From: Fomitopsis serialis
Lineage: Eukaryota > Basidiomycota > Agaricomycetes > Polyporales > Fomitopsidaceae
Assembly: GCF_022376445.1 (NCBI RefSeq)
Contig: NW_025955042.1
Location: 1 to 64,000, forward strand
Length of the DNA: 64,000 nt
Direction of reading: 5' to 3'
A program made the translations under genes and the position numbers. Of the stretch, positions 2,785 through 52,950 are shown one piece after another. Under the pieces are notes generated by a model. It worked only from the letters and a program-made list of their open reading frames with translations, made no database searches and had not been told where the DNA came from. The number at the start of each line of letters is the position of its first letter. Position 1 is the first letter of the stretch.

Positions 2785-3020
2785 TATTGTAGGTTGAAGA
2801 CTTCGCACAGCGGGTGGAACGTAGACGAGAGGATATCATTACCAGGCTCGAGATGAGCCCTTTATATACCGTACAGTGGGTGGCTACCGAACAATAGCGA
2901 AACATATACAAAGCGCCGCTCGCAGTGGCAAGCGGTGCACATGCGAGGCTATGCATCGTGAAACAAAGCAAAGACGACTCACGGTGTAGGTTGCCTACGT
3001 GCTACGCACGTACTCCAACA
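2785..3020 (-). repeat. copia 3' LTR
   Basis: This is the left-hand copy of the 236-bp repeat; on the minus strand it begins TGTTGGAGTACG and ends CTACAATA. The extent is set by the flanking gccca duplication and by the primer site beginning exactly at the end of the other copy. The RNase H reading frame stops inside it at 2979. Confidence 0.9.
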
Positions 3021-11801: not shown

Positions 11802-12037
11802 TATTGTAGGTTGAAGACTTCGCACAGCGGGTGGAACGTAGACGAGAGGATATCATTACCAGGCTCGAGATGAGCCCTTTATATACCGTACAGTGGGTGG
11901 CTACCAAACAATAGCGAAACATATACAAAGCGCCGCTCGCAGTGGCAAGCGGTGCACATGCGAGGCTATGCATCGTGAAACAAAGCAAAGACGACTCACG
12001 GTGTAGGTTGCCTACGTGCTACGCACGTACTCCAACA
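11802..12037 (-). repeat. copia 5' LTR
   Basis: Right-hand copy of the 236-bp repeat. It is followed on the outside (12038-12042) by gccca, the same pentamer that precedes the left copy at 2780-2784. Confidence 0.9.
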
Positions 12038-30336: not shown

Positions 30337-30557
30337 TCGCCGAGAGCCAGGTACAGTCGATGAGTGACTCGAACAGGAACCAGGATACATGCCAAATCGG
30401 GAAAGCGGGAACACTGTGGCTACGTAGACCGTGGCACATCGTATCGCGCTGTACAAGAGTCCGTGGAGAGTCCGTGCGCATACTAACGCGCAGTACAAGA
30501 CCATGGCGCATTGTAACGCACCGGTAAGAGTCCATGTGTAACGGTGTGGCCGTTACA
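30337..30557 (-). repeat. Chromovirus 3' LTR, truncated
   Basis: Matches 42198-42418 over 221 bp. On the minus strand it begins with the palindrome TGTAACGG-N5-CCGTTACA (30537-30557). About 234 bp at its minus-strand 3' side are missing; the break abuts Plavaka subterminal repeats. Confidence 0.85.
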
Positions 30558-30572
30558 CCACCTCCTCCTCAA
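30558..30572 (-). promoter_or_regulatory. Chromovirus polypurine tract
   Basis: The minus strand reads TTGAGGAGGAGGTGG directly before the TGTAACGG start of the 3' LTR. Confidence 0.7.
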
Positions 30573-30593
30573 GGGGAAGCGGTGACGCGACCT

Positions 30594-32505
30594 TCAGAGG
30601 TCAAGCCGTTGCGGCGGTCTCGAGACACGACCGGAACGTGTCGTGGTCTGTGTGGGCGGCACATACCAACAACGAGGATCCTCGGAGCGCGTGGGCGGCG
30701 GACTCGGAGGACGCGGGGCAGCGGCAGGCACAGCAGGAGCAGCGGAGGGCACGGCAGGAGCAGCGGAGGGCACGGGAGCGGATGCGGACGACGGGCTTGA
30801 GGCGGGCACGGGAGCGGGTTCGAGAGCGGGCGCGGACGGGACCTGTGGGGCAGAAACAAAGGATGTATCAGTAGCAACAGGAATGGGAGCGGATTTGTCG
30901 AGTATAAGACGATGAGGGCGAATGGCGCGAGGATGACGGCGATGGAAACGTTCGAGGTGCTCGTTGGAAGTGGTGGGAATGTCGGTGAGTGGGATCCATG
31001 AATCTTCGTCGGGGGAGAGACCCTTCCAGCGCACGAGGTACTCGTAGCGCTGGCCGAGTTTGCGAGAGTCGAGGATGTCTGAGATGTCGGGGAAAGCGTC
31101 GAGACTTGAGCTGTCGAGAATGAGAGGATCGGGGTCGGCATGGGAATGAAATTCAGAAGGATCGGAGTAGGGTTCGAGAAGGGAAACGTGGAAGACTGGA
31201 TGAAGGCGAGAAAGATAGGAGGGAAGGCGAAGTTGGTATGCAGAATTAGAGATGGCGCGATCGACGGGGAAGGGGCCGAGACGGCGATGGTCAAGCTTGT
31301 CTGACGGTCGGGTGGACTTGATATGACGACGCAGCAACCAGACGAGCTGGTCCGGCTTGTACGTCGGGCTATCGAGGACATGCGCGTTGTATGCGCGAGC
31401 TTGGCGGTCTTGAGCCTCCTTCAACTCGGCGCGGAGCTCGTCATGGAGACGCTCCAAGCGCTGAGCAAGATCGGTGGCGGCGGGAACTGTGGTGCGTTCG
31501 GAGAGTTGGGGTTCAAAGGAAGGGTGAAAGCCATAGTTGGCAAAGAAGGGAGATTGGTTGGTGGACGCGTTCACGTTGTTGTTGAACGCAAACTCGGCAA
31601 GTGGCAGGTAGTCAACCCAGTCGTCCTGTTGATACGATGTGTACGCACGGAGGTACGTCTCGAGCGTCTGGTTGGTACGCTCGGTCAGTCCATCTGTTTG
31701 CGGGTGATAAGCCGTTGACGTCCTGTGATCAACCTTCAAAATAGTGGTAAGTTCTCTCCAAAAGTGTGAGACGAAAACGGAACCGCGGTCGGAGACAATT
31801 GTCTCGGGGAGACCGTGATAGCAGAAGATCCTGTCGAGAAACAACCATGCCAAACCCGGCGCGTCTAGCGTCTCGTTGCACGGGATGAAGTGTGCAGCGC
31901 GGGTAAGGCGGTCGCAAACGACCCAGATCGAGTCGTAGCCGTGAGAGCGTGGAAGCTTCACAATGAAATCCATAGATATGGACTTCCACGGCCTGTCAGG
32001 GATCTCCAAGGGGCGGAGCAAGCCGTATGGCTTGTGATGTGGCGTCTTGATGCGGCTACAGATATCGCACGCTTGAACATAGCGGCGAACATACGTCTGC
32101 ATGCCTGGCCACGAGAAATCACGCCGAACAAGCGCCAGCGTGCGCGCTCGCCCGGGGTGACCTGAAACGAGCGAGTCATGACGGGAATAGAGAATGTCAG
32201 CACGCATGGATGAGGGTATGAAGAGTGAACCTTTGTGGATAACGAGATTGCCTTCCAGCGCAAAGCCCGTGTCGCCACGAGAGATCGCTTCGCGCCACTC
32301 GGTATCATTGCGGATGGCAGCTTGGTACCGACTGAGCTGCTCTGAGTTGTCGAGAGCGAGCGTTGTCAGCGCTGAGACTTGCTGTGGACGTGGAGCGTCC
32401 GACGCTGATGCTTGATCCGGAAATATACGCTCTGTGTGCAAAGGTGTGAGTAGAATTTTTTCCTGGAGGCGGAGGACGTCATCCCCCTCTCTCGGGACGT
32501 CGCGA
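30594..32505 (-). pseudogene. Chromovirus integrase and chromodomain (3' part of pol)
   Basis: This is the continuation of pol one frame away from the RT part. Visible in order: the HHCC zinc-binding region (ending CDICSRIK), the DDE core with ISMDFIVKLPRSHGYDSIWV, SDRGSVFVSHFW and HPQTDGLTERTNQTLETYLR, the LDHRRLGPFPV and LPSYLSRLHPVFHVSLLEPY blocks, and a C-terminal chromodomain LGQRYEYLVRWKGLSPDEDS then WIPLTDIP (about 30985-31060), followed by a long Pro/Ala/Ser-rich tail and a stop at 30594. Chromodomains of this class bind histone marks and steer integration into heterochromatin. The frame joins the RT frame only if one nucleotide in the GAGAGAGGGGGATG run near 32500 is ignored, so this copy is either frameshifted or misread there. 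Confidence 0.88.
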
Positions 32506-35017
32506 AGGAGCATCCGCGGGGTTTTTAATCCCAGGCGCATAGTCCAGTCGGAAGTTAAATTCCGACAAGAACATTGACCAACGCGCCTGACGTCGATTTA
32601 GAATGCGAGAAGACATAAAATATACCAAGTTCTTGTGGTCGGAGACAACGGCAACGGGTTCAGCGGTGCCTATGAGCCACGCGCGCATGTCCCGGAACGA
32701 CTCGACAATGGCGAGAAGTTCTTTGTCGTGCACATCGTAATTGATCTCTGCCGGGGAGAGCTTGCGAGAGAAGTACACCACTGGGTGTAGGAACCCTTGA
32801 GCGTCCGGCTGGTGCAGGATACCTGACATAGCAAAATCGGAAGCGTCAGTAGCCAAGGTACACGGGAGAGACGGATCGTAGTGACGGAGAACGGGAGCCG
32901 AGGTGAAGACGCGCTTCAGCCGCTGAAAGGCGTCGGCGGCGTCGGGTGTGAGCACAAATGGCTCGCCTTTACGGTCCTTGCGCGTGAGCGCGTTGAGCGG
33001 GAGGACCGTCTCGGCGTAGTGGTCAATAAAACGTCGGTAGAAGTTTGTAAACCCGAGGAAGGACTGGATGTCCTTGACCGATTGCGGAGCAGGCCAGTCC
33101 GCGATTGTTGAGAGTTTGCTGGGGCTCATCTTGATGCCATCCGAGCCCAGCCGAAAGCCGAGGTATTCGACTTCAGACCGGTCGAACTCGCATTTCTTCG
33201 CGTTAGCGAAGAGCCCAGCGCCCTCGAGACGCTCGAGAACCATCCGGACGTGATGGTCGTGCTCTTCCTGGTTCTTGGAGAAGATCAGGATGTCGTCGAT
33301 GTACACAACACACACGACGTCGAGGAGGTCGCGGAGGGTGTCCTGGATGAAACCTTGAAAAATACCGGGTGCGTTAGTGAGACCAAATGGCATGACTGTG
33401 TACTCGAAGAGTCCGAGGTGCGTGCGGAAAGCGGTCTTCCACTCGTCACCCTCGTGAATGCGGATGAGGTTGAAAGCATTCTTCAGGTCCAAGACCGTGA
33501 AGACCTTGCATCCCTGGACTCGATCAAGCAGATCGTCCATGAGTGGGAGCGGATACCGGTTTTTCTTCGTAATGGAATTGAGACCGCGATAGTCTACGCA
33601 GAGACGTAGCTCGCCAGTCTTCTTCCGTACAAAGAGGATCGGCGATGCAGCCGAAGAAGTAGACCTGCGAATGAATCCTTTTTTGAGGTTAGTCTCGATG
33701 TAATCGAAGAGCACTTGGCGCTCATGTTGCGACAGGTGATACATCGGCCCAAAGGGCGGTGTTTTCCCCTCCTCTAGCTCGATAGATGCATCAAAGCCAG
33801 GGCGATGAGGTGGCAAGTTCTCCACCTCAACTGGTGAGAACACCTTCGCAAAATCGTGATATTTCTCGGGCACCGACTGCAGGAAGTCGTCAGGTGCTGC
33901 CGAGTCAGGCGGGGGCTCGGGAGGAACAGAATCCAGGGGCAGAGTAGCCGAAGACGGGTCGGGCTGAGCATCGAGCTGCATAGATGCGAGCTGATACCCT
34001 GGAGTACCCTTGGGGTGATACCAAAGCAAGGCTGTCTCGTTGTGTCGAGCATGCTTGCGGAAACGCATAGAGTTAATGAAGGAGATGTCAAGTGAAGGAG
34101 TGGGCGTAGAGTCAGGAGCTGAAGGCAAAGCAGAAACAGCATTCCAGACAGACGAGAGCACACTGGTTTGACCGGAGCCAATTCCAGATGCTGGAGACAA
34201 AATGGGGGAGCGAGACGGACTCGAAAGGGATGGAGCCAACGACGATGCAGTCGAGGCGTTCAGGTACGACACACCGTGCACAGACGGGTTGCACTGGGCT
34301 CTGTCTGAGCGGACAATGCTGTCGGTACAAGCAGGAACTACCATCCTGCCGTTAAGACCGAGGCCTAGACCGACAGTCGTAGTGGAGCACATATGAAGCG
34401 AAGACACAGAAGTGTCTACTCGGGCAAGACCGAAGCCTTTTCCGAGTGCAGAGACAGGGTATGATGGGTTGGCACCACAGCATGACAAAGCAAGTCGCTG
34501 CCGGGCCCAATCAATCGCTGGATTGTGGCGTTGCAGCCAGTCGAGACCAAGAATTACAGGAAACGGAACAGAAACAAGCCCAAGAGAAATTGCTTCAGAA
34601 TGTTTTTGAACAGACAACGACGTTACGACGTCGTGGGTGATCAGGCCAGACGCGATCGGTCGATCATCTACCGCCGTAATAGGTATCGGCACGTCTTTGA
34701 GACGACGCGGGAGAGCGTGACGGTTTGCGAAGTCGAGAGAAATGCATGAGCCAGTCGCACCGCTATCAACAAGCGCGTACGTGCGAACTGGCTTGCGATC
34801 AGGAAATGAGAGAGAAACCGAGACGAAGAAGTGGTCCGAGGACCGCGGGTTAGCATGAACATGTGATGAGAGTTGGAAAACGGGTGAACAAGCAGGCTTG
34901 GGTATCCACACGCCGTTCACCGAACGGACGTGCGTTGGGGCACCCGCGGCGACGGGAGCCTGAGTCCCTGAAGATGCCGGAGGCCCCGGGACGGGTGAAG
35001 GATCTCCGGCTAGGCTT
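32479..35017 (-). pseudogene. Chromovirus protease, reverse transcriptase and RNase H
   Basis: Open from the frameshift site at the gag end. Protease YALVDSGATGSCISL (about 34770), RT with LRLCVDYRGLNSITKKNRYP, FTVLDLKNAFNLIRI, TVMPFGLTNAPGIFQ and the catalytic YIDDILIFS (about 33290; the more usual form is YVDD), RNase H with TLATDASDFAMSGIL and NYDVHDKELLAIVESF, ending KNPADAPSRRP before the stop at 32479. A Ser/Pro-rich linker of about 150 residues separates protease and RT. All catalytic residues I can check are present, so only the downstream shift near 32500 breaks pol. An ATG at 34920 exists, but translation by -1 frameshifting from gag is more likely (see 34976-35024). Confidence 0.88.
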
Positions 35018-35024
35018 TTCCCGC
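34976..35024 (-). promoter_or_regulatory. Candidate -1 ribosomal frameshift signal between gag and pol
   Basis: The gag frame ends GCG GGA AAA GCC TAG. The heptamer G GGA AAA (35018-35024) fits the X XXY YYZ slippery rule in the gag frame. A -1 slip leads into AGC CTA GCC..., open into protease. Five nucleotides downstream a perfect 7-bp stem (GCCGGAG at 35010-35004 with CTCCGGC at 34982-34976) encloses a GC-rich loop that can itself pair (CCCG/CGGG). Slippery site, spacing and structure are all seen in the sequence; frameshifting itself is inference. Confidence 0.65.
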
Positions 35025-36137
35025 AGAGGGAGCAGCCTTAGCCTGCTTCTTGGCCTTCTCCGACATGTTAAGACACTCGGAGATGGTGTGCTTACCCTTG
35101 CCGCAGTAGAAGCAGAGGCCATTCTTGCGGCGATACTCCTTCTCGGCTGGGGTTAGCGGGCCGCGTCGAATGGCGTCGATTTCCATCGGAACAACATCAT
35201 TGTTCGACGGCGTGCTCGCAGGCGCAACGGGCGCCGGAGCGGACGACGATGCTGGTGCTGACGACGAGGAAGCATGCTGCCTCGGAAGTGGGTGCTTTCC
35301 GGCAGCTCTCTTGTTATACTCCCTGGTCTCGACATCAAGATCATGGATCTTGTTGTCAGCATCAATGACAATCTTAGTCCACGCCTCAAGACTATCAGGG
35401 CGGGACACAGTGACCAGGGCCTGCTTAACAGCGGGCTTAAGACCCTGGTCGAACATGGCGATCTGCATGTAGTCGGACACGTCGACATAGGCGAGGAGCT
35501 CCTTGAAGCGGGAAGCGAAATTCGCCGCGGAGCCAGTCTGCCGGAGCTTCTGCAGCTCGCGGTAGGCCTTATTGACCTGGTTAGCGTCCTCGAAGCGCTT
35601 CTTAAACGCGTCTTCGAAACGCGACCAGTCACGCAGCAACTCAGGTTGCGTGCGCTCGACGTCGTTGTACCAATAGAGGGGTGAACCATCCTCAAGGTAC
35701 ATGGACAGCATAAGCGCACACCTATAGCTGTCCACGACGTTCTGGAGCTCGAACGTCGCGCGGAGTTCGCGCAGAAACGGAAGGACATGGTCGGACTTAC
35801 CTGAGAACATGCGCGGCGCGCGCGTCTTGACGTTGGGACCAGAGCCTCCACCACCGCTGTTGCCTTGCGAGGACACGGTGACGTTGACGGGCTGAGGTGA
35901 CGTGGCCGCGACGGTGAGAGCCTCGACGCGCTGGGTCATCGTGAGGAACGCATTGCCCATTTGCGCTTGGTTGTTCGAGAGCTGTTCGGCGTGCCGCCCG
36001 AGAGCCTCAAGCGCTCGGTAGAACGCCTGGGCTGGGTCCTCGGGAGCCGGGGTAGGCTGCGGTGCTGGAGCTTGGGCGTCCTGCTGGCCGTCGTTGCCCC
36101 AGCCGTCGAAATCCTGACCTGGATTGAAGCTATCCAT
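35010..36137 (-). CDS. Chromovirus Gag, 375 aa, intact
   Basis: An ATG at 36137 opens a frame with a Gln/Pro/Ala-rich N-terminus, a coiled stretch (QAFYRALEALGRHAEQLSNN), the retrotransposon-gag core (KSDHVLPFLRELRATFELQN, LRDWSRFEDAFKKRFEDANQ, LRQTGSAANFASRFKELLAY) and a CCHC zinc knuckle CFYCGKGKHTISEC near residue 350. It is followed by a Lys/Ala-rich tail and TAG at 35010-35012. This protein would form the particle and bind RNA in the cytoplasm. Length and order are normal for fungal chromoviruses. The start is supported by the primer site lying 50-70 nt upstream. Confidence 0.88.
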   Translation of the reverse strand: MDSFNPGQDFDGWGNDGQQDAQAPAPQPTPAPEDPAQAFYRALEALGRHAEQLSNNQAQMGNAFLTMTQRVEALTVAATSPQPVNVTVSSQGNSGGGGSGPNVKTRAPRMFSGKSDHVLPFLRELRATFELQNVVDSYRCALMLSMYLEDGSPLYWYNDVERTQPELLRDWSRFEDAFKKRFEDANQVNKAYRELQKLRQTGSAANFASRFKELLAYVDVSDYMQIAMFDQGLKPAVKQALVTVSRPDSLEAWTKIVIDADNKIHDLDVETREYNKRAAGKHPLPRQHASSSSAPASSSAPAPVAPASTPSNNDVVPMEIDAIRRGPLTPAEKEYRRKNGLCFYCGKGKHTISECLNMSEKAKKQAKAAPSAGKA

Positions 36138-36185
36138 AATAGGTTAAGTAGTAGTATAGCCCTTACGAGCTCGGATAGACTAGAA

Positions 36186-36202
36186 GTAGCGGAGGGATAC
36201 CA
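36186..36202 (-). promoter_or_regulatory. Chromovirus primer-binding site (candidate)
   Basis: The minus strand reads TGGTATCCCTCCGCTAC, so the plus strand reads as a tRNA 3' end finishing in ...GGATACCA. It lies 7 nt from the inferred LTR edge at 36210. I cannot say which tRNA. Confidence 0.5.
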
Positions 36203-36209
36203 ATAAAAA

Positions 36210-36347
36210 TGATGAGCTGGCACTTGGACAGCCCAACGGAGACTACTAGCGTAGTTAGGGGTGGTCTTGCCAAACTGTGACGGGCGTGCCGGGGGCTGGC
36301 CGGGTTGAGTGTCGAGACGTAGGCGAGAGCGAGAGATCGTGCAAGTG
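36210..36347 (-). repeat. Chromovirus 5' LTR, inner part
   Basis: Minus-strand 3' part of the 5' LTR, separated from the rest (42102-42418) by the nested element; the pentamer aagtg (36343-36347) is the left copy of the nested element's target duplication. The exact inner edge (36210) is inferred from a TG dinucleotide next to the primer site. Confidence 0.6.
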
Positions 36348-36549
36348 TGTAACGGATATTCCCGTTACGGTATGTCTCGTCTTGTATGTTTGTCATTGTT
36401 TGCCTGAGGGCTCGTATGGCACGCCTGTGCACCTACGAGACCTCAGCCTTTTACCTCGTCACCGCCTTTGTATGCAATCTGTAGACAGTACCTCTTGAAT
36501 AGAGACTGGGTGCAGCGCATACGAGGCACGACGAGTAAGGCGCCTTACA
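36348..36549 (+). repeat. 5' LTR of the hairpin element
   Basis: 202 bp, starting TGTAACGGATATTCCCGTTAC (7-bp perfect inverted repeat, gtaacgg/ccgttac, at 36349-36368) and ending GGCGCCTTACA. Confidence 0.92.
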
Positions 36550-36688
36550 CTTTTTTGCGCTCCAGAAAAGCTTCTATCTCTCTGGGGACTATCTACTCTA
36601 GGCAACAAACTCTCGAACCTCGAAATTCGACATCAACAAACTCTATGCTACTTTGATCATCCTCTGGCCAACTCGACAACTCGACAAG

Positions 36689-39600
36689 ATGTCCGAGTCG
36701 ACCAACACCCCGTCCGCACCTTCGCGAGGCAGCCGCGGGTCCCACAGTGGAACCCGCAGCAAGCTGAAGGCGTTGCGTGCGGAAGTCCGAGCAAAGCTCG
36801 CCGCAAGTCAAGAGCGGATCAACAAAGCCCTCGAGGAATCCAAGCAACTCGAGGCCGAACTGCTGGCAACGGTCGACGCCGCTCTGTCCGAGGCCAGCAG
36901 CCGCAGTCGGTCTTCTCGCACGAAGACCACCCGGACTGAGTCTTATCACCGCGAGGACTCAGCCGGAGCCCTCACAGAGCAGGCGCCGTCCGACCGTGAG
37001 GTCGAACAGGCACCGCGCACTGAGCGGCTCGAGCCCAATGTCGAGCCCGCTCAAAACCGCCCGGAGACCGACTCTCCACCTGCTTCGACCCAGCCGATGA
37101 AGCTCGGCACCACTCTGAGGAGTGGTGAGCGCGCCGAGCTCGACAACGTAGCCGTAGTCGAGCTCGTGCCTGGATTGAACGAGCAGCGCCAGGAGCTGAC
37201 TCGTATCAGCACCCGGGAGGGCATAGGCACACAGTACTACAGTAGTACTGTGTGCAGTGGGAACGAGCCCACGCGTGTAGATACGCTCGTCGCGTGTTCA
37301 GAGATGAGCCGCGACACAAAATATATATATTCGTCGTCGAACGCCGTGCGCGCCACGACGAGCAGCCTGCTCGACGCGACGCGCGACGCGCTCAACGCTA
37401 CAGGCGTCGAGCGCCACGAGTCTGTGGTGAGCGCCCCGAGTTCTAGCGCCCACCGCACTACGCTCGACCGCCACCACCGACCCCTCGTCCTCGCCTCCTC
37501 CCACTCTCTGGGCAGCCACCTCGAGCGCCCGTCTGGCGAACCAGACGCGCGCGCCGCCCCGACGCGAGTGCGAACTCGCGTTCGCGAATGGCTGGCTGAC
37601 TTACCGCCAGTCCAGTCAGTGGCGACCGACGACCTGGTACCTCCCGGTACCAGATCGCCAATTCCTCCCTCACCGGCTCCTCAACTCTCCCTTCTGGTCC
37701 CGCGCCTCGACTTGGGAGGTCCCCTCTTCGAGTCCGATGACTCTGGCGACCGTCACAGCGGCTCTGGCGACACGCAACACAGCCGCATGACCCAGGACTT
37801 GAACGACGCGCGTTCAAGTCCAACGCCGAGCCGCAAGACTGAGCGGACCATGGACAACGCGGAGCAAGGAGAGTGGAAGGAGGACAGGGGGCAGAGGAGT
37901 AGCGAGGTTGAGGAAGGAACACAGGGACAGAGGGAGGAAGGGTGCGGGGCGAGCAGGATGCACGAGCACGAAGGCTCGACAACCACAGGCACGTACTCAC
38001 CGTACGTCCCTGCATCGCCGCCTCCGCTTCCAGTGCCCGCGCCAGCACGCGTAACGACGGACGAGAGGTTCGTCGTGCGTCCTATTGACCACGAAGACGG
38101 CACTTCCGCCTCCAGGTACGACTGCGAAGTCGTACCGGATGTTTCGCGGGATAGCACGTCTGTGCTACGGGACGACCTCGCGGTCGTACCCTCCAATCTC
38201 CGAGGCAGTACGCCCAGGATACGGGACGACCTCGTGGTCGTACCGTCCATCTCGCAAAGCGACACGGCGGACGCGCAGCAGTGCACGTCCGACGTGTCCC
38301 ATTCATCCATCACCGACCGATGGATAGCGAGTACGCCGAGATTGATGCTCGACGTACACGCTACCGACCAGCATAAAGGGTCGAGAACTGAAGGTACGCC
38401 CCTGATGGACGTACCCACCTCGATACCTCCTACCTTGCCCGCATCCGCACCAACAAGCGTAGCGACGAACGTTCAGTTCGTCGTACGCGTTGTTGGTCAT
38501 GAAGACGGTGCGTCTGCGCTACGGGACGACCCAACGGTCGTGCCTCCCATTCTGCAAGGCAGAGCGCATGCGGTAGGAGACGACCTTGCGGTTGTACCTC
38601 CTAATTCGCGAGGCAGCACGACGGACCTGCAGCGATGCATGTCCGAAGTGCTCTACTCAGCTTCGACCGTCCATTGTGCAGCGCGTACGCCCAGCCTACT
38701 GCTAGACGTACCCGGTGGCTATGACCACTGCGCGTCGACCGTCCCTGACCCTTCGTCTGGCAGGCCCATCGCTCGACCAACTGCGACGCCACACGGCCTG
38801 CACGTCCTCACGGAAGTGCAGGCCCCCAGTTGCTCCGATGTAGCTGAACCTCCTGAGGTTCAGCTGGCCAGGTCGTGGGACGACCTCGACGACATCTCCA
38901 GCAGCCCCCAATCGCGCGCAGCCGACCTCCGAGAAGACTTGCACTCCCAACCGGAAGTACAAGCCCCCGGTAGTTCCAAGACAGCTGAACATCTCGCGGT
39001 TCAGCTGACAGGTCCACGATACAACCCCGACCGACTCGACGAAGCGGCGGACCTCGGCCTCGACTTCGACCTCGACCTCTCCAGCAACAGCATCCACCGC
39101 TCTCTCCGCGATCTTGGTGCCCCGACGAGCGCGCTGCCCGACGATCGCGTATTCCCGAGCAACGCGCGAGCTCGAGATCGCGACCCGACTACTGCACTAC
39201 CAACAGTGCAGCGGCCGGCGCTTACGAAACCCGACACGCCAGACCGGTGTCCCGACCGTCAACCCGGCGAGAACTTTACAGTTCTCGCCGAGGGCTCGCG
39301 TCTAGGGAACCCCACCCAACGTTCCATCGACTTCTCCGTGGTCTCCGACACCCATGGCGACTACGACGGGCACCACGAGTCGGAGATCGCACGCGAACTC
39401 TGGGGAATGCGCGTAGGACCGAATGACGGTCAGGGCGGGGACGAGGGCGATATGAGCGAGGGCGAGGAAGTGCGAGAGGTAGATGAGGAGGGTCAGGCAG
39501 AAGGAGGAGAGGGGGAAGGGTGCAGGGCAAGAAGAGAAGTCGAGCGAGTCGAGCGGGATAGCTCGACGACAGGTACGTCTTCGATAGACGTATCTCTTCC

Positions 39601-41662
39601 TTCCCTACCACCATCTCCTATCCCACTACCATCGCCTGTGACGACCACGACAACCAGTGCGGTTGTCGTAGCAGTCACCGCACGCGACGATGGTACAGTC
39701 GGCCCAGGGGGCGACCTACAGGTTGCGCCCGGCACGGCCATACAATGCGGTATGATCGGCAAGCGAGTGTGCCCGACCGGCGTACCCAACGTCTCTGCGA
39801 TTCACGCGCAGACATCGAACTTTTCGTTCGACGCCGGATTCGAGGAACCTGGCGGCGACTCGAGAAGCGAGTACCTCACGGTACTCGCCCCGCCGTCACC
39901 AACCCCTGTCCTGATACCACCATCGGCGACAACCACGACCACCGATGAGGTCGTCGTGGCATCCACCACGATGGACAGGGGGAACGCCGACTCACCAGAC
40001 GTCCGACAGGCTGCACCCGAGCCTGGATGGCGACCTTTGGGACGCTACATGCCACCTGCACGACGCATCCACGTGCAGCAAGACCGATGTGAGCCAGCTA
40101 CGGTCGACGGCGATGTGAGCCAGGCCAAGTACCTCGCGGTACTTGACATCTCCAGCGAGCGAAGTCAGGACCCACCGCGGAGCATGTCCAAGATGGACAT
40201 GCTGCCGTCTTCCCCGGACCCAGCGCAGTCAAACGAAGGGACGGGGACTGATGAAGTCACGTCGGTACTTCCAGGGCAAGGGAAATTTGGCGAGGACGAA
40301 TCCTCGTCCTCGCGGGTACAATTACCTGGACCGTATGGTGTGGCAGGCACATCCAGCTTACCGGGTGATGCACCCGCATCGAATGACGCGACGACCAGGG
40401 CGTCGTCGCGCGCCCATAAAAGGGAACATCCACCGCGAGGGCTGGATTCATCGGACTCGGGTGAACGACGACGTTCAACGACTACCGATGGTATCGAGAC
40501 CGAGCCGGCGCGAGCGCAAGGAGGAGATACCTCCTCTACGAGGGGGGGTACTCTCTTGAGAGGGGAAGGGAGCGGGGCCTCGAACGGCCGCCGCTCATTC
40601 CACAACACAAGCAGTACATCACACGAAGATGTACTGGCCTCGAACCCAGCAGCGACACGGACGCCAAGCCGTGAGCTTGACGTACGGGCCACCCACGGGA
40701 ACTCGACGCGAATGCCAGCTACTCGCACATCGAGTAGTTGGCGCGATGTACAGGATACGGCGCGAGTGGCCAGTACATCATACAATGGTGTATTGGGACC
40801 AGATGTAGTGTCGGGCCGTACGTCCAGCGTAGTGCTCGACGTACGAGCTTCACGTCGGACATCGAGACACGTACCACCTGTACCACGCGCATCGAGTGAT
40901 CGACTCGAAGTGCAGGATACGGGTGACCGTCGCAGCCACGACATCACTCGGGAAGCCAGTACCTCGCGCCGCGAAGTACTGAGACTGAACCGAGTGTCGA
41001 CCGCACTGGATCGTCCAGTAACCGTCAATGTGAGTCGATGGCCGAGTGACAAGAGGTCGCGCGAGGAATGCTTCAGCCTCCTTGCAGACCAACTTGACCA
41101 CGACTTTGACGAGGCCGATGTCGCGGCAGGTGCTGGCGAGTGGGACATTTGGGCTCACTGCAAGAGGTCAGCACTTAGCTGTGGGCATGCCATCGAGGAG
41201 ATGTCCCCGCGACCGAGGACATATTCTCGTGCTGCTCAACGAGCATGGGACCACTTCCAGAGGGAATTGGAAGTGGTTCCTCTCGAGTTTGATCCTCTGC
41301 TCATTGCACCATTACCTATGGAGATGGTGCGATATTGGGCCTACAACAAGCTGGGATGGCTTGTTGTACCACCTCGCAGTCAACCTCGGGATGACTCCGA
41401 CTGGTATAACTCCTCTGATGAGGAGCCTCATACCACCACTCGTGAGGAGTACCCTGACCAGATTGAGTCGGAGTACTTCTCCGAGTCCGAGCACCATAGC
41501 TCGTGGTACTCACGAAGTTCAGGGTCTGAAGAGACAAACTCGGTAGTAGTCTCTGACTACTACGAGCAGTCCGAGATGGAGGATACCCAAAGTTCTTCTG
41601 CACTATCTGCCGAAGATGAGGGTAACTCGGAAGATGCAGACTACTACTCCGAGTCCGAGTAG
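36689..41662 (+). CDS. Giant disordered protein (1657-1669 aa) of the hairpin element
   Basis: One uninterrupted frame fills the element. Either ATG 36653 or ATG 36689 (context acaagATGtcc; N-terminus MSESTNTPSAPSRGSRGS) could start it; I prefer the second for context. Near the N-terminus there is a probable coiled coil (KALRAEVRAKLAASQERINK, ALEESKQLEAEL). Most of the rest is Ser/Thr/Pro/Asp/Arg-rich and likely disordered. A roughly 110-codon block is repeated (FVVRPIDHEDG... at about 38069 and FVVRVVGHEDG... at about 38477), as is an EVQAP...AVQL block (about 38815 and 38956). Only the C-terminal region has a globular look (REECFSLLADQLDHDFDEAD, RAWDHFQRELEVVPLEFDPL, MEMVRYWAYNKLGWLVVPP), followed by an acidic Ser/Tyr tail. 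No known retroelement domain is present. The DNA is full of short perfect inverted repeats, so coding and RNA-structure constraints may coexist. Confidence 0.8.
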   Translation: MSESTNTPSAPSRGSRGSHSGTRSKLKALRAEVRAKLAASQERINKALEESKQLEAELLATVDAALSEASSRSRSSRTKTTRTESYHREDSAGALTEQAPSDREVEQAPRTERLEPNVEPAQNRPETDSPPASTQPMKLGTTLRSGERAELDNVAVVELVPGLNEQRQELTRISTREGIGTQYYSSTVCSGNEPTRVDTLVACSEMSRDTKYIYSSSNAVRATTSSLLDATRDALNATGVERHESVVSAPSSSAHRTTLDRHHRPLVLASSHSLGSHLERPSGEPDARAAPTRVRTRVREWLADLPPVQSVATDDLVPPGTRSPIPPSPAPQLSLLVPRLDLGGPLFESDDSGDRHSGSGDTQHSRMTQDLNDARSSPTPSRKTERTMDNAEQGEWKEDRGQRSSEVEEGTQGQREEGCGASRMHEHEGSTTTGTYSPYVPASPPPLPVPAPARVTTDERFVVRPIDHEDGTSASRYDCEVVPDVSRDSTSVLRDDLAVVPSNLRGSTPRIRDDLVVVPSISQSDTADAQQCTSDVSHSSITDRWIASTPRLMLDVHATDQHKGSRTEGTPLMDVPTSIPPTLPASAPTSVATNVQFVVRVVGHEDGASALRDDPTVVPPILQGRAHAVGDDLAVVPPNSRGSTTDLQRCMSEVLYSASTVHCAARTPSLLLDVPGGYDHCASTVPDPSSGRPIARPTATPHGLHVLTEVQAPSCSDVAEPPEVQLARSWDDLDDISSSPQSRAADLREDLHSQPEVQAPGSSKTAEHLAVQLTGPRYNPDRLDEAADLGLDFDLDLSSNSIHRSLRDLGAPTSALPDDRVFPSNARARDRDPTTALPTVQRPALTKPDTPDRCPDRQPGENFTVLAEGSRLGNPTQRSIDFSVVSDTHGDYDGHHESEIARELWGMRVGPNDGQGGDEGDMSEGEEVREVDEEGQAEGGEGEGCRARREVERVERDSSTTGTSSIDVSLPSLPPSPIPLPSPVTTTTTSAVVVAVTARDDGTVGPGGDLQVAPGTAIQCGMIGKRVCPTGVPNVSAIHAQTSNFSFDAGFEEPGGDSRSEYLTVLAPPSPTPVLIPPSATTTTTDEVVVASTTMDRGNADSPDVRQAAPEPGWRPLGRYMPPARRIHVQQDRCEPATVDGDVSQAKYLAVLDISSERSQDPPRSMSKMDMLPSSPDPAQSNEGTGTDEVTSVLPGQGKFGEDESSSSRVQLPGPYGVAGTSSLPGDAPASNDATTRASSRAHKREHPPRGLDSSDSGERRRSTTTDGIETEPARAQGGDTSSTRGGTLLRGEGSGASNGRRSFHNTSSTSHEDVLASNPAATRTPSRELDVRATHGNSTRMPATRTSSSWRDVQDTARVASTSYNGVLGPDVVSGRTSSVVLDVRASRRTSRHVPPVPRASSDRLEVQDTGDRRSHDITREASTSRREVLRLNRVSTALDRPVTVNVSRWPSDKRSREECFSLLADQLDHDFDEADVAAGAGEWDIWAHCKRSALSCGHAIEEMSPRPRTYSRAAQRAWDHFQRELEVVPLEFDPLLIAPLPMEMVRYWAYNKLGWLVVPPRSQPRDDSDWYNSSDEEPHTTTREEYPDQIESEYFSESEHHSSWYSRSSGSEETNSVVVSDYYEQSEMEDTQSSSALSAEDEGNSEDADYYSESE

Positions 41663-41701
41663 TAGTCTACGTTCCTGGTTGCATAACTCCATCGAGTTAT
41701 G
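36700..41701. repeat. Array of short perfect inverted repeats within the giant ORF
   Basis: Hairpins with perfect arms of at least 8 nt and loops of about 2-13 nt, by position: 37108-37127, 37136-37165, 37227-37255 (13-nt arms, 3-nt loop), 37562-37581, 37634-37653, 37796-37820, 38116-38135, 38463-38483, 38796-38823, 38842-38865 (11-nt arms), 38982-39007, 39266-39289 (10), 39647-39669, 39867-39888, 40126-40145, 40182-40202, 40290-40313 (10), 40388-40409, 40612-40636, 40817-40845, 41250-41277 (10), 41343-41367, 41543-41563, 41638-41668 (11) and 41682-41701. Many more have 6-7-nt arms, for example 38870-38886 and 39186-39205. The arms differ in sequence from hairpin to hairpin. Rough arithmetic for random DNA gives about one such 8-nt hairpin in 5 kb. 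Confidence 0.85.
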
Positions 41702-41882
41702 TATGACAATGGTGAACGGTTGTGTCTGCTCACTGACACGATCTAGCATGTCGTTGTCTACAGTTCAACATCATCTTTGTTTTGCCACTTGCTACCACCG
41801 TTGGGTTGTTGCATATGTTTCCTTTCCTTTTCCTTTTTTCTATCTGTTTCTCTGGTTATCGCTGGGACCCGTGGTCGTGTCC
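41663..41882 (+). other. 3' untranslated region of the hairpin element
   Basis: About 220 bp, T-rich in the right part (tttcctttcctttttctttttt-like run at 41816-41850), with no further gene. Confidence 0.6.
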
Positions 41883-41894
41883 AGTGGGGGAGGG
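41883..41894 (+). promoter_or_regulatory. Polypurine tract of the hairpin element
   Basis: agtgggggaggg lies directly before the TGTAACGG start of the 3' LTR, which fixes the element's orientation. Confidence 0.75.
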
Positions 41895-42096
41895 TGTAAC
41901 GGATATTCCCGTTACGGTATGTCTCGTCTTGTATGTTTGTCATTGTTTGCCTGAGGGCTCGTATGGCACGCCTGTGCACCTACGAGACCTCAGCCTTTTA
42001 CCTCGTCACCGCCTTTGTATGCAATCTGTAGACAGTACCTCTTGAATAGAGACTGGGTGCAGCGCATACGAGGCACGACGAGTAAGGCGCCTTACA
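41895..42096 (+). repeat. 3' LTR of the hairpin element
   Basis: 202 bp, identical by eye to 36348-36549, followed by the target duplication aagtg (42097-42101). Confidence 0.92.
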
Positions 42097-42101
42097 AAGT
42101 G

Positions 42102-42418
42102 CGAGAGCAGAGGACAAGGGCGCAGGCCCGAACACTGGTGTTGGCAAGACGAGAGACGTACAAAGCGGAGCGCCAGCTATCTAGGGAATCGCGGGACTCG
42201 CCGAGAGCCAGGTACAGTCGATGAGTGACTCGAACAGGAACCAGGATACATGCCAAATCGGGAAAGCGGGAACACTGTGGCTACGTAGACCGTGGCGCAT
42301 CGTATCGCGCTGTACAAGAGTCCGTGGAGAGTCCGTGCGCATACTAACGCGCAGTACAAGACCATGGCGCATTGTAACGCACCGGTAAGAGTCCATGTGT
42401 AACGGTGTGGCCGTTACA
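42102..42418 (-). repeat. Chromovirus 5' LTR, outer part
   Basis: Continues the LTR interrupted at 36347. Its right end is the palindrome tgtaacggtgtggccgttaca (42398-42418), 8-nt arms around 5 nt, identical to the end of the left LTR. 42198-42418 matches 30337-30557. Confidence 0.85.
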
Positions 42419-44582: not shown

Positions 44583-45227
44583 CTTGTATGAGGCATCGCT
44601 TCCTTTCAGTTCAAAATGAGGTGTACGATGGGGTCATAAGTATGTGTTGTTTGAGTGGCCGAGTACGCAGCACGGCATCTCGATGGAACTCGGTAGGCTC
44701 TAGCAGGATGTACCGGCCGTGCAGCGGCTGTAGACGAGCCAATGCTGCCCCGTCCTACCAGTCAACAGGTCTGACAAGCCAGTGCGGTGTCAATTCGGGC
44801 TTTTTGAAACACGGTTTACTCCGGGAAGGCCTGTCGTACCACCGATAACTGCGCCGAGATCCATAGCGGGAACTCGGCTGAGCCAGCGGCGCGCCAGTCT
44901 GGCAAACCGACTTCTGGCGAGCGATGCTGTCATGGTAAAGGGAAGCACGCATGCCGGAAGCCCTCCTTCCTTCACTAAAGTAGCACGGAAGACTGAAGTG
45001 CGGACTAGTGTGGGCGCATCGGGGTAACGTCGAGTCTGACAGGCGTCGGGCGCTGCGAAGCTGAAAGTCATGCTGCGAGGTTATCGGCAACACATGACTG
45101 CGCCGAAATGGTTGTGTGCCGCAGTGCGGCCGGAGGGAAATTGGAATAAGAAGCGTAAGCCTCGACGCGCGTGGACTCGTACGAACAGACGCACCCGCTG
45201 AGTTCGACATCGTACACTGCCGTCACC

Positions 45228-45498
45228 ATGCAGGCCCGCACCTCCCTCTTCGCGCTTGCTGTCCTCCTCCTCGTCGCGATGTCGCACGCCGCGGCCGTGG
45301 TCACCCCGGAGAAGCGAGTCGCAGGTTCGTCATTCTTATCGTATAGTTCTTGTCGTGTTTGCTGACTCGAGCTGATTGATAGACCCCATGAACATGGATG
45401 AAGACGGTACGCCTATATGACAGCGCTGGCTGCCCGTACGGATGTGCTGATATAATGGCATTGTCCCAGACCTCGTACGCGTCCGCGCGATGATCTGA
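45228..45498 (+). CDS. 49-aa secreted peptide precursor, copy 1
   Basis: Three exons, 45228-45324, 45383-45406 and 45470-45498 (150 nt), with GT-AG introns of 58 and 63 nt. The protein starts MQARTSLFALAVLLLVAMSH, a clear signal peptide probably cleaved after AAA or AAV, followed by VVTPEKRVA (a Lys-Arg that fits Kex2-type processing) and an acidic-to-basic tail ending VRVRAMI. The mature part would be under 20 residues. The same exon structure and length recur in copy 2, with a different stop codon (TGA here, TAA there), which supports a real gene. I do not recognise the family. The mature peptide is too short for a hydrophobin, and no CAAX box is present, so it is not a basidiomycete lipopeptide pheromone. 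A further intron changing the C-terminus cannot be excluded. Confidence 0.65.
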
Positions 45499-46020
45499 GA
45501 GGCTGCGACCTTGGTAATGGTAGACCTCCGAGAGGAGGAGGACGCAGGCTAATAACTCTTCACATTCAGCAGGTTGGCGGAAACAGGACCAAGACAATCG
45601 GACTTACGCAACAAGTCGCAGTCCAATGACTTCCCCGTCGTATGTCCAGAAGTATGGGCAGTTTGCTTTCGGATATACGTAGTCCGTAATCCGTACTAGT
45701 AGATGACATCATCAGAGAATGCCAACCGTTGCAATCCAGAGTTTAGCTGAACAAGGCGGAGAGATCGTTGTGAGTATCGATATCTTTGGTTCGATTGCAC
45801 CGAAATGATGAGGGGCTGGACAAGTGTCCGACACGCAAGCTGCTCAGTATACTGGCCGATGATAAAGGATCTACCCGACAGGTATGATGCGGTGTACGTC
45901 AAGTATGCTTTCGTAGGCGCAAACTTAAGTGCACATCTTGCTACCGAGTACTTGTCCCCTTAATGAAGTTCGTGGCCCTCTCGCGACCCGCGCACACCGG
46001 CCACCATGGCCAAACGGGCC

Positions 46021-47866
46021 CTACGCATGGTTCCGTCGCGCGAGTTGCAACCTCGTCATTTGCTTCAGGACCTCGGTGCCATCCTCCGAGCCTTCCCCGT
46101 CAAAGACAACGAACCGCGAAGAGCGCCCAAGGTCAAGGTGAGGGAATAGCGAGTCGAGAAAGCGAGCAACGATATTGATGTCGGACGTGAGCGAGATGCA
46201 GAGAGGCTCGTCGACGTGCAGCTCTCGAAGCGCACACTTTGTCGCCTCCGGATCCGGCGCATTGTCCGTGTCGGAGTAACTTGAAGTCTGCTGTTGGAAG
46301 GCCTGGGAGAGTAGGTCGAGGCCCGTCACGTCGTCTAGAGACCACAGTCGCAGACACTCGAGCTCAGGACATGTATGCGCGATGTCACGCAGATGGTCGA
46401 TGGTAAGAACAAGACCTGGCAAGTCGATCGATCGTACCGTGGGCCATGCCGCTACCAAGCCAGGGACACTGGTATATGTGGATGCATCGGGGTTGACCTC
46501 CTGGATCTCGACGTCCCGGAGACGTTGAAGCGCGAGCAGCGGACAAGCCACCGGGTGAAAAGGCGTACCAGCTGACGTTCCGCCGATGAATAGAGGTTGA
46601 GAGAAGCTAGGGTCGATTACACTAAGCCTCAGTAGAGACTCAGCATTCCGGCGACGCAGCACGTCGAAGGTCGCGTGGAGCGCGACCGCCACTGCCGCTG
46701 CATTGGGATCATCGTCGTCAGAACATCTAAAACACATCTCCATGTCCTCTAGTCCGGGCGCAGCTATCGCGTGAGCGAGCACCGCCATCCCCGTCGTGCT
46801 CCCTTTGAGCAGGAGACGCCTCAGGTTCTCAAAGGGACGAATGGGCGGAACGTCCACGTCGTTGTCCGCCTGAAAGTCGTGCGTACCGCCGCGTTCGACC
46901 ATATCGATCTCGAGCGCAGTGAGGCCATGGATGGTGGAGATTGCAGCTAGGGCGGCCCGGGTGAGGGCACGACGAGATTCGAAGATGCAGAGGGTCCGGA
47001 TTGTCTGACTAACGAAACAGCCGCTAGGTACCGACCGCCATAACGGGTACCAGAAGGCTTCGTGCGCCAATTTTCGGAGGTAGAGCTCTTCGAGGTTGGG
47101 GAGAGCCTGCAGCACAGCAGGAAGCATTTGCTTGAAAGCATGTCGCCGCATGCGGTACGCGTATTCGTACGTCTGACAACCGTTCTCCCTCATATCCTCG
47201 TCTTCGGGAAGGCTAAGGACACGAATTGACGGGGAAGTCATCGATATTATTTCGGGTGTGGCATGCTCCCATATGAGTTCGCGCAGATTTGGGAAGAGCG
47301 GCCGGCCATGTGCGTGCTGCTGAAGGAAAAGGAAGATGGAAGGTTCTATTGTATCCTCTGTTCCGTAGCGGAGGACGTGAATGAAAGGCGCATAGTGCTT
47401 GAATCGAGCCCATTCCTCCGGAGAAATGGGGCCTGGGACGTATTTCTGGTACACCCATCAGTGAAGAGTCTTAAGATCGTATAGCATTGCAGTCTGCTGG
47501 CACATCACTCACATAGTTGAATTCGTAGCTACACGGATCAATGCCTACAGCCATGTCCTCGTTGACCTCGTCATCTGATTCATGTCCTCCCATAGATTCT
47601 TCTTCATTCGTAGGCCACTTGACGGAGCCGAGACTGAAGCTCCGTAAGACAGCCTCGCATATGGTGCTCAGCTCCAGCCGTCTCCAAAGAACCCTCACAG
47701 CCGACGTGTGGAACGCACGACACACCCGTGCACACCTTGCCAGAGCAGTTCTCGCAGGGCGATTCCGTTCGTCATTGACGTAGAGATGGTAATTTGTTTG
47801 TGGTGCAAGTTGGCCGCATATCTCGTCCACTAGCTCGAGCGGAATCTTGCAGGTATAAAGAGACAT
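46021..47866 (-). CDS. F-box-like/LRR-like protein, copy A (592 aa)
   Basis: Exon 1 47866-47513 and exon 2 47445-46021 are joined by a 67-nt GT-AG intron; the splice is in phase and stop-free. The N-terminus (IPLELVDEICGQLAP ... ARTALARCARVCRAFH) looks like an F-box-type motif, followed by an acidic linker (ESDDEVNEDMAVGIDP). Exon 2 contains regularly spaced leucine-rich stretches (PNLRELIWEHATPEIISM, PNLEELYLRKLAHEAFW, LALQRLRDVEIQEV, CPELECLRLWSL) and ends LQLARRNHA. F-box/LRR proteins usually recruit substrates to SCF ubiquitin ligases; large expansions are common in Agaricomycetes. Family assignment is by pattern only. It is convergent with the peptide gene upstream (plus strand), 522 bp apart. 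Confidence 0.75.
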
Positions 47867-47890
47867 CCGGCGCTGGAACGGTGTATGCGC

Positions 47891-49791: not shown

Positions 49792-50324
49792 CACTGTGGA
49801 TGTCCGACACGGCGATTTGTTCCCAGTACATACTACATATGCCTCTCCTCGTCGACGCTCGTCTTCATGGCCTTTCATTTTGTCCGCTCGCACCCCGCTT
49901 TTTTAAGCACGGTGGACTCCGAGAAGACCTGTCGTACCACCGATAACTGCGCCGAGATTCATAGCGGGAACTCGGCTGAGCCAGCGGCGCGCCAGTCTGG
50001 CAAACCGACTTCTGGTGAGCGATGCTGCCATGGTAAAGGGAAGCACGCATGCCGGAAGCCCTCTTCCTTCACTAAAGTAGCACGGAAGTGCGGACTAGTG
50101 TGGGCGCACCGGGGTAAGCATCGACACTGGCAGGCGTCGGGCGCTGCGAAGCTCAAAGTAGTCATGCTGCGAGGTTATCGGTGGTGCGACACATGACTGC
50201 GCCGAGATGGATGTGTGCCGCAGTACGGCCGGAGAGAATAAGAAGCGTACGTCTCGACGCGCGCCGTGGACCTGCACGAACAGACACACCCGCTGAGTTC
50301 GACTCATCGTACGCCGCCGTCACC

Positions 50325-50595
50325 ATGCAGGCCCGCACCTCGCTCTTTGCGCTCGCTGTCCTCCTCTTCGTCGCACTATCGCACGCCGCGGCCGTGGTCA
50401 CTCCGGAAAAGCGCGTCGCAGGTTCGTCATTCTTATCGTATAGTTCCTGGCGTGTTCGCTGACTCGAGCTGATTGATAGACCCCATGAACACGGATGAAG
50501 ACGGTACGCCTGTGTAACAGCGCTGGTTGCCTGTACGGATGTGCTGATATGATGGCATTGTCCCAGATCTCGTACGCGTCCGCGCGATGATCTAA
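50325..50595 (+). CDS. 49-aa secreted peptide precursor, copy 2
   Basis: Exons 50325-50421, 50480-50503 and 50567-50595, the same lengths as copy 1 (97, 24 and 29 nt), with introns of 58 and 63 nt. The signal peptide (MQARTSLFALAVLLFVALSH) differs from copy 1 at two residues and the mature part at one (Met to Thr in the PMN/PMNT region). The Lys-Arg site and the VRVRAMI end are kept, although the stop codon is TAA rather than TGA. Changes concentrated outside the coding sequence would indicate constraint; I could not measure this. Confidence 0.65.
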
Positions 50596-51083
50596 GAGAC
50601 TGCGACCTTAGTAATGGTAGACCTCCGAGAGGAGGACGCAGGCCGCTAACTCTTCACATTCAGCAGGTTGGCGGAAACAGGACCAAGACAACCGGACTTA
50701 CGCAACAAGCCATAATCCGTCGACCGTCAAGAAATATGGGCAGTTTGCGTTCGGATATACTAGTCCATACACCGTAGATATATGACATCATCAGAGAATG
50801 CCAACCATTGTAGTCCAGAGCATAAAAGTTAGTTAAACAAGGGGGAGAGGTCGTGGTGAGTATCTTTCGTCCGAGTGCGCTGAGATGAGGGAGGACCTGG
50901 ACAAGTGTCCGTCACGCATACTGCTCAGTACACTGGTTGACGAAGAATCTACCTAACGAATAGGTCGTCAAATCAGTCTCATAAGATGATTCGGCGCACG
51001 TTAGGCGTATGCCCTCGTGGACACAAATACATCTTGTGCTACACAGTGTCCCTCTGCACTCGTGCCCGTCTTGCGAACGCACA

Positions 51084-52924: not shown

Positions 52925-52950
52925 GCGGTGCTGAAACGGCAGAGGCCGTG

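Follow-up and report, generated by a model that had tools for sequence, protein, structure and literature searches.

We analyzed a 64,000-nucleotide stretch of DNA from the wood-decay fungus Fomitopsis serialis (contig NW_025955042.1, positions 1 to 64,000; hereafter the window), which carries a long terminal repeat (LTR) element with a single long reading frame. The sequence searched was the 66.2-Mb assembly of this species (806 contigs), in which the window belongs to contig C788. An earlier note on this DNA had described identical 202-bp LTRs, an AAGTG target duplication, a polypurine tract, and one intact 5-kb frame without any retroelement domain, and had called the element a parasite of a parasite. 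All of these descriptions proved correct. The LTRs are direct copies of the TG...CA type and do not differ at any position. The duplicated 5 bp are present on both sides, and an empty site with a single copy of them was found in a Gypsy LTR at C523 of the same assembly. A G-rich tract precedes the 3′ LTR, and the whole element interrupts the 5′ LTR of a minus-strand Gypsy element. Its frame (1657 codons from the ATG, or 1669 when counted from an upstream TTG) has an N-terminal part that appears coiled-coil-like by eye, a repetitive middle, a conserved C-terminal domain, and an acidic tail. The features are listed in Table 1.

The frame is densely filled with short perfect hairpins. A scan identified 59 non-overlapping hairpins, evenly spread at 4-8 per 500 nt of frame, with none in the leader, one in the LTR, and one in the 3′ untranslated part. 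One of them has a 13-bp stem and a 3-base loop (37227-37255). In 200 synonymous shuffles of the frame, hairpins with stems of at least 6 bp numbered 15.7 ± 3.5 (maximum 25) compared with the 59 observed, and those with stems of at least 8 bp numbered 2.1 ± 1.4 (maximum 7) compared with 22 observed. Synonymous shuffling thus rules out the hairpins as a by-product of the amino acid sequence. In-frame inserts are likewise ruled out, as the hairpins start in all three codon phases (23, 19, and 17). The 11 of 13 tiles of ~5 kb in the window that do not contain the element hold 3-21 hairpins each, 0-3 of them with stems of at least 8 bp, and the Gypsy frames show no excess (12 hairpins in the 2.4-kb reverse transcriptase [RT] frame and 5 in the 1.1-kb Gag frame). 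All 16 other full-length copies of the element that we fetched carry 51-67 hairpins between their LTRs, including 22-33 with stems of at least 8 bp, and two copies from a second subfamily carry 64 and 52. Folding energies in 240-base tiles fell far below those of shuffled sequence: for all 8 copies tested, the mean z score lay between -3.2 and -4.7 whichever strand was folded, whereas the Gypsy element gave -1.1 and -0.8 and two other stretches gave ~0. Loop lengths peak at four bases, as expected if a single strand folds. No known RNA family was detected in Rfam at E ≤ 1. The hairpin array is the main finding here and points to a dual-coded frame. The earlier note mentioned neither the array nor the diverse family to which the element belongs.

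Table 1. Features of the window, with the support for each.
Feature	Position	Strand	Support
LTR element, whole	36348-42096	+	LTR pair, target duplication, polypurine tract
Target duplication AAGTG, left copy	36343-36347	.	Empty site with one copy at C523
5′ LTR, 202 bp, start TGTAACGG, end TTACA	36348-36549	+	Identical to 3′ LTR; related LTRs in assembly
LTR-tip hairpin GTAACGG-atattc-CCGTTAC	36349-36368	+	Nearly identical tip in surrounding Gypsy element
CTGG-N4-AGCGCA in LTR, could pair with TGCGCTCCAG of presumed primer site	36506-36519	+	In 30 of 30 LTRs examined
Presumed primer binding site CTTTTTTGCGCTCCAG	36550-36565	+	14-base core exact at 36 assembly places
Single frame, 1657 codons from ATG	36689-41662	+	6 of 17 copies open, MSES to SESE
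59 non-overlapping short perfect hairpins, stem 6-13 bp, loop 3-12	36735-41662	.	Scan of frame
Conserved C-terminal domain, 217 aa	41009-41659	+	tblastn match in 16 of 19 full-length copies including window
Hairpin CATAACTC-catc-GAGTTATG in 3′ untranslated part	41682-41701	.	Two-sided changes among copies
Polypurine tract (G-rich) GGGGGAGGG, adjoining 3′ LTR	41886-41894	+	TGGGGGAGGGTGT at 29 assembly places
3′ LTR	41895-42096	+	202/202 bp identity with 5′ LTR
Target duplication AAGTG, right copy	42097-42101	.	Empty site with one copy at C523
Gypsy element hosting the insertion	30337-42418	-	Insertion in its 5′ LTR
Gypsy integrase-like and chromodomain-like frame	30594-32540	-	By eye
Gypsy protease/RT/RNase H	32479-34920	-	Pfam
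Gypsy Gag	35010-36137	-	Pfam
236-bp direct repeats, 9 kb apart	2785-3020 and 11802-12037		99.6% identical
Copia-type RT fragment	6986-7369		
Frame of 518 codons	28037-29593		
Two 3-kb stretches, direct order	44799-47881 and 49897-52939		81% identical
Weaker relatives of the 3-kb stretches	57466-58311 and 62136-62644		

The element belongs to a family. An LTR search of the assembly returned 40 scored matches among 77 candidates, and the 21-base LTR tip occurs at 69 exact places. We studied 17 full-length copies (the window copy and the 16 fetched) and, with the two copies of the second subfamily (B), 19 in all. The LTR pair is identical in 13 of the 17, and the distance between LTRs is 5.3-6.3 kb. 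An adjacent 5-bp duplication is present in 14, among which L040 and L041 share one site. Internal identity among copies is 68-100% where aligned, and identical LTR pairs in such diverged lineages suggest recent insertions. The reversed control of the 14-base primer-site core has no exact place in the assembly, compared with 36 for the core itself. We examined the 5′ ends at 30 of these 36 sites, and all 30 carry the N-terminal part of this kind of frame; nine belong to the second subfamily, which has 30-44% amino acid identity and a protein start of MAGSTT. The position of the presumed primer site is strongly conserved among copies, as is that of the polypurine tract. Of the 29 places with TGGGGGAGGGTGT, 27 are beside an exact LTR tip and one (C301) is as far from a primer site as expected; the one at C114 is tied to neither.

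Divergence between copies is mosaic. L032 and L033 have a synonymous divergence (dS) of 0.371 in the C-terminal part compared with 0.048 overall, and the window copy and L042 have a dS of 0 in the N-terminal part compared with 0.143 overall. This looks as if copies recombine often. L040 and L041 (C476:3972-9898 and C516:14873-20793) have flanks and duplication alike and differ by many single-base indels; the two short contigs probably represent a single site, a hint of assembly errors or haplotypes. At C257:285604-299340, two LTR tips lie 13.7 kb apart, about twice the usual length, and probably mark a copy with another element nested inside.

The frame is uninterrupted over its full length in 6 of the 17 copies (1657 to 1832 codons), and most of the others shift frame a few times. 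Assembly errors may account for some of these breaks, given that certain near-identical copies are separated mainly by single-base indels. L043 and L044 differ by 4 substitutions, 9 single-base gaps, and one gap of 3, and L040 and L041 differ by 6 substitutions, 13 single-base gaps, and three gaps of 3. In other pairs, substitutions outnumber gaps (72 substitutions and 7 gaps between L031 and L033). Since single-base indels may be assembly errors, shared frame breaks were not taken as proof that broken copies move. Gaps in multiples of three made up 245 of 376 in pairwise comparisons between open copies versus 982 of 1888 between ten broken copies. Among the six open copies, the ratio of nonsynonymous to synonymous divergence (dN/dS) ranged from 0.34 to 0.68 for the frame as a whole and from 0.19 to 0.37 for its C-terminal part. 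When hairpin codons were excluded, in a calculation that omits the pair L032/L033 and poorly matching columns, dN/dS was 0.12 in the N-terminal part, 0.59 in the middle, and 0.24 in the C-terminal part. On the C-terminal value, the frame is under purifying selection.

The predicted protein has no recognizable relatives by sequence outside this species in the searches made. Pfam yielded no family at E ≤ 1, NCBIfam yielded none, and the best match in a sequence search of the PDB had an E value of 0.77. Searches for related proteins returned 5, 1, and 8 proteins, all from Fomitopsis serialis (one search scored the 7979 candidates sharing most words), and no viral contig matched. The C-terminal domain had no tblastn match in L046, C77, and C623, with both copies of the second subfamily among these three. 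Structure prediction for this domain gave a mean predicted local distance difference test score of 47 and no usable fold, with low-confidence helices at residues 14-86.

We then compared the evolution of stems with that of loops and flanks. Each group of near-identical copies was represented by one or two members, giving 11 copies for the divergence measurements, their pseudo-hairpin control, the per-stem re-pairing counts, the initial pairwise count, the loop lengths, and the 89:33 and 73:62 mismatch counts given below. The column-pair count, the 80:54 mismatch count, and the reading of compensated variants used 12 copies chosen likewise, and the analyses of loop motifs and of the 72:30 mismatches described below used all 17, with the two B copies added for the per-locus motif count. 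Folding energies were computed for 8. The divergence and re-pairing analyses skipped hairpins that had gaps in a compared copy or whose identity, either in the hairpin itself or in the flanks, was below 55-60%. The column-pair count kept the 383 of 1009 pairs that form a stem in 4 or more copies and have letters in 8 or more. Stems were picked in a third copy and divergence was measured between two others, so the choice of stems does not favor a slow-stem result.

Stems of at least 8 bp diverged at 0.075, compared with 0.207 for loops and 0.166 for flanks, i.e., at 0.36 of the loop rate. For stems of at least 7 bp, the values were 0.087, 0.194, and 0.163, respectively. The corresponding values for pseudo-hairpins, in which the arms were merely equal in two copies, were 0.121, 0.138, and 0.156. 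The difference extends to synonymous sites: in the six open copies, dS was 0.070 for codons lying wholly in stems and 0.228 for loop codons. Outside hairpins, dS was 0.219 for the middle of the frame and 0.309 for its C-terminal part, such that stems are about threefold slower than loops or the middle.

Stems that change also tend to re-pair. Stems with two changes were fully re-paired in 34 of 150 cases versus 3.6 expected (about ninefold over chance), and those with four changes in 7 of 59 cases versus 0.1 expected. None was fully re-paired among stems with three (0 of 110), five (0 of 20), or six or more changes (0 of 12), where almost none would be expected. One hairpin is found in three paired states, AGCATGTCCA, AGCACGTCCA, and AGCACATCCA, each with its complement. 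The hairpin in the 3′ untranslated part, which is outside the frame, also shows compensated changes. An initial pairwise count (565 two-sided Watson-Crick changes and 157 others; stem rate of 0.097 versus 0.22) was not used as proof, because it counted pairs of copies more than once and took its stems from one of the two copies being compared, a fault that also makes the rate of 0.097 too low. These results point to selection on structure as well as on the protein.

The earlier note had suggested that either the protein or its RNA is important to the element. This holds for the protein (dN/dS of 0.24) and for a folded nucleic acid, given the slow and re-pairing stems, but not for RNA specifically. 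The note had also named, as support for its proposal, more than one copy sharing the frame, target duplications that differ, and dN/dS below 1, all of which are present in the assembly. We regard the proposal of a new class of non-autonomous LTR element as partly supported: no known domain is detectable by sequence, but protein searches gave relatives in Fomitopsis serialis only, the C-terminal domain is unmatched in 3 of 19 full-length copies, and, with no usable predicted fold, this domain could still be a hidden Gag.

None of the copies appears to encode its own polymerase. We located 147 RVT_1 places (150 of 159 candidates scored) and 104 RVT_2 places (all 105 of 105 candidates scored), and none was inside a copy when the lists were compared by eye. 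The closest RT is an RVT_1 place 113 bp outside L033 (C146). As far as the assembly shows, the family is non-autonomous, because no RT lies inside the copies.

A primer site matching the 3′ end of a tRNA would begin with TGG. The presumed primer site of the element does not, and there is no tRNA gene in the window. Ten bases of this site could pair with the CTGG-N4-AGCGCA motif in the LTR, which suggests a possible role in self-priming. LTR elements of the Tf1 type are self-primed. The element resembles them in having a primer site without a TGG start and with 10 bases that could pair with the LTR, but differs in that its predicted pairing is split 4 + 6 by four unpaired bases.

The surrounding Gypsy element, represented by copies in the window and at C523, shares with our element the LTR tip TGTAACGG-N-CCGTTAC. 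It differs in encoding Gag and Pol, in its primer-site and polypurine region, and in lacking a hairpin excess. Its LTR is 318 bp, with ends read in the C523 copy. The 3′ LTR in the window shares just 221 bp of this, so the 3′ end of the window copy has been truncated or rearranged. Elsewhere in the window, the two 3-kb stretches and their weaker relatives are probably a tandem gene family. The pair of 236-bp repeats, with the Copia-type RT fragment between them, is probably another LTR element. The 518-codon frame is one that we take to resemble the transposases of large DNA transposons of mushrooms.

Our preferred reading, to which we give an even chance of being right, is that these copies form a family of non-autonomous LTR retroelements that has recently been active in Fomitopsis serialis, and that a dual-coded frame with ~60 selected hairpins provides its cis signal for a helper. 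It builds on what the computation established: the LTR anatomy, the family, the lack of RT in the copies, the hairpin excess, the slow stems, and their re-pairing. What is said here of the folded strand, the role of the hairpins, and the helper is inference. The LTR of the element would drive synthesis of its RNA, which the proteins of another element would take up and copy, with insertion then producing a 5-bp duplication. The hairpins would act as a distributed cis signal, in genomic RNA or in minus-strand complementary DNA (cDNA), that aids particle uptake and copying. Copies would be moved in trans by helper enzymes, perhaps those of a Gypsy-type helper with the same LTR tip, and the integrase of the Gypsy family sharing this tip is possibly that of the helper. 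The protein, whose two ends are conserved, may bind the hairpins of its own copy or else other copies. Self-priming through pairing of the LTR with the primer site, as in Tf1, is a lead. More broadly, the family may represent a class of retroelements in which the coding frame itself is the cis signal, with dozens of interchangeable hairpins written in synonymous choices recruiting the replication machinery of another element; we put this forward tentatively and with more doubt than conviction.

Several observations weigh against this reading. In the N-terminal part, dS outside hairpins is likewise low (0.046), and slow synonymous sites are therefore not unique to stems. Many hairpin variants are broken on one side, such that stems are not kept without exception. 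Per column pair, 32 of 57 two-sided changes are Watson-Crick compared with ~43% estimated from substitution rates, a weak difference. Selection on a sense RNA usually spares G.U pairs, and no such sense-strand preference was seen in any of four counts of single stem mismatches (A.C:G.T of 72:30, 89:33, 80:54, and 73:62). The first count is significant (P = 0.0002 against a neutral share of 52%, and P = 0.012 against 58%), and the 80:54 and 73:62 counts are not (P = 0.08 and P = 0.67). With A.C mismatches at least as frequent as G.U, either strict pairing is needed, the complement folds, or pairing is kept at the DNA level. GNRA-like loops are weakly enriched on either strand after related arms are collapsed; on the antisense strand, they occur at 28 of 99 when counted per locus, and after collapsing there are 5 and 5 of 47, with no strand preference. 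Finally, a helper sought in the assembly by means of the primer site, LTR tip, and polypurine tract was not found, and neither the primer site nor the tract of the element was ever seen there together with a polymerase.

In the main rival explanation, the hairpins are products of mutation. According to the available text of one study, template switching can create perfect hairpins and fix stems by multibase compensatory changes (PMC8794818). If switching during reverse transcription or replication made and mended functionless hairpins, with the frame kept open for its protein, the perfect hairpins and their re-pairing could both be explained. Such a process would be expected to show no G.U preference, which matches the mismatch counts, and the mosaic divergence of L032 and L033 (dS of 0.371 for the C-terminal part and 0.048 overall) is consistent with templates being switched often. 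We nevertheless consider this explanation unlikely, if worth taking seriously. By our reasoning, copying from arm to arm should leave stems near neutral, whereas the observed rates are 0.075 in stems and 0.207 in loops, and dS is 0.070 in stems against 0.22-0.23 in loops and the middle. The Gypsy element in the same window also lacks a hairpin excess, with 12 in its RT frame and 5 in its Gag frame. The mismatch counts bear as well on a second alternative, in which the hairpins act in the other strand, either in an antisense RNA or in single-stranded minus-strand cDNA, e.g., for protection or to guide strand transfer. An A.C:G.T ratio of 72:30 on the coding strand is an excess of G.T over A.C on the complement, and the antisense folding energy is equally extreme. 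However, two similar mismatch counts are not significant, and the strand preference of GNRA loops is gone once related arms are collapsed. We regard this alternative as rather improbable.

That the protein is the main thing, as a highly diverged Gag-like or other structural protein to which the hairpins are secondary, would agree with the low dN/dS outside hairpins (0.12 in the N-terminal part and 0.24 in the C-terminal part), with the share of gaps in multiples of three between open copies (245 of 376, versus 982 of 1888 between broken ones), and with the low-confidence helices of the C-terminal domain. This explanation must contend with the absence of Pfam, NCBIfam, or PDB sequence matches, with the 3 of 19 full-length copies that keep their hairpins without a match to the C-terminal domain, and with the fact that codon choice, beyond the amino acids, makes the hairpins; we find it very unlikely. 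Least credible, and in our view highly improbable, is the idea that openness alone matters, with translation over 5 kb shielding the RNA from decay triggered by a long untranslated tail and the sequence otherwise free. The middle of the frame, with a dN/dS of 0.59 and many length changes, would suit this idea. Yet the sequence is not free, because the termini are conserved at the protein level and stems are slow at synonymous sites.

The near-identical direct LTRs, together with a target duplication and an empty site, place the element in the order of LTR retrotransposons. It differs from autonomous Gypsy elements in that the window protein has no RT, RNase H, or integrase by Pfam and no RT place lies inside the copies. 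Large retrotransposon derivatives (LARDs) are long non-autonomous LTR elements with a well-conserved RNA secondary structure and no protein product, according to the available text of PMC7215508. As in these, our element has a long internal region without gag or pol and a conserved secondary structure. In contrast to LARDs as described there, it keeps an open, selected frame of 1657-1832 codons in 6 of 17 copies, for which a protein is predicted, and its structure consists of small hairpins packed densely into this frame. Terminal-repeat retrotransposons in miniature (TRIMs), such as Cassandra and the fungal Helenus, the latter present in some Agaricomycetes, are likewise non-autonomous LTR elements thought to be moved by helpers but are almost without internal domains, as far as the accessible parts of PMC10886601 and PMC7215508 describe them; our element has 5.3-6.3 kb between its LTRs. 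Sireviruses also carry clusters of palindromic motifs, although in the available text these are mostly built on one CGG-CCG core, are non-coding, and are likened to transcription signals (PMC2829016). The arms in our element vary from hairpin to hairpin and lie inside a frame. The available portions of a survey of fungal LTR elements (PMC3248453) and a review of Revolver (PMC2851119) contained nothing alike. Among the open-licence matches listed, nothing alike was seen by title or abstract for a hairpin-filled retroelement frame or for non-autonomous basidiomycete elements, and the name Fomitopsis serialis was in no paper among the open-licence literature matches.

How parasites of retroelements get their RNA picked by a helper with which they have no genes in common is an open question, and a candidate answer is visible here. 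A family with many diverged, apparently recent copies makes this candidate testable. The tens of covarying hairpins within one frame also make the family an extreme natural example of codes that overlap, and a good data set on which to tell structural selection from template-switch mutation.

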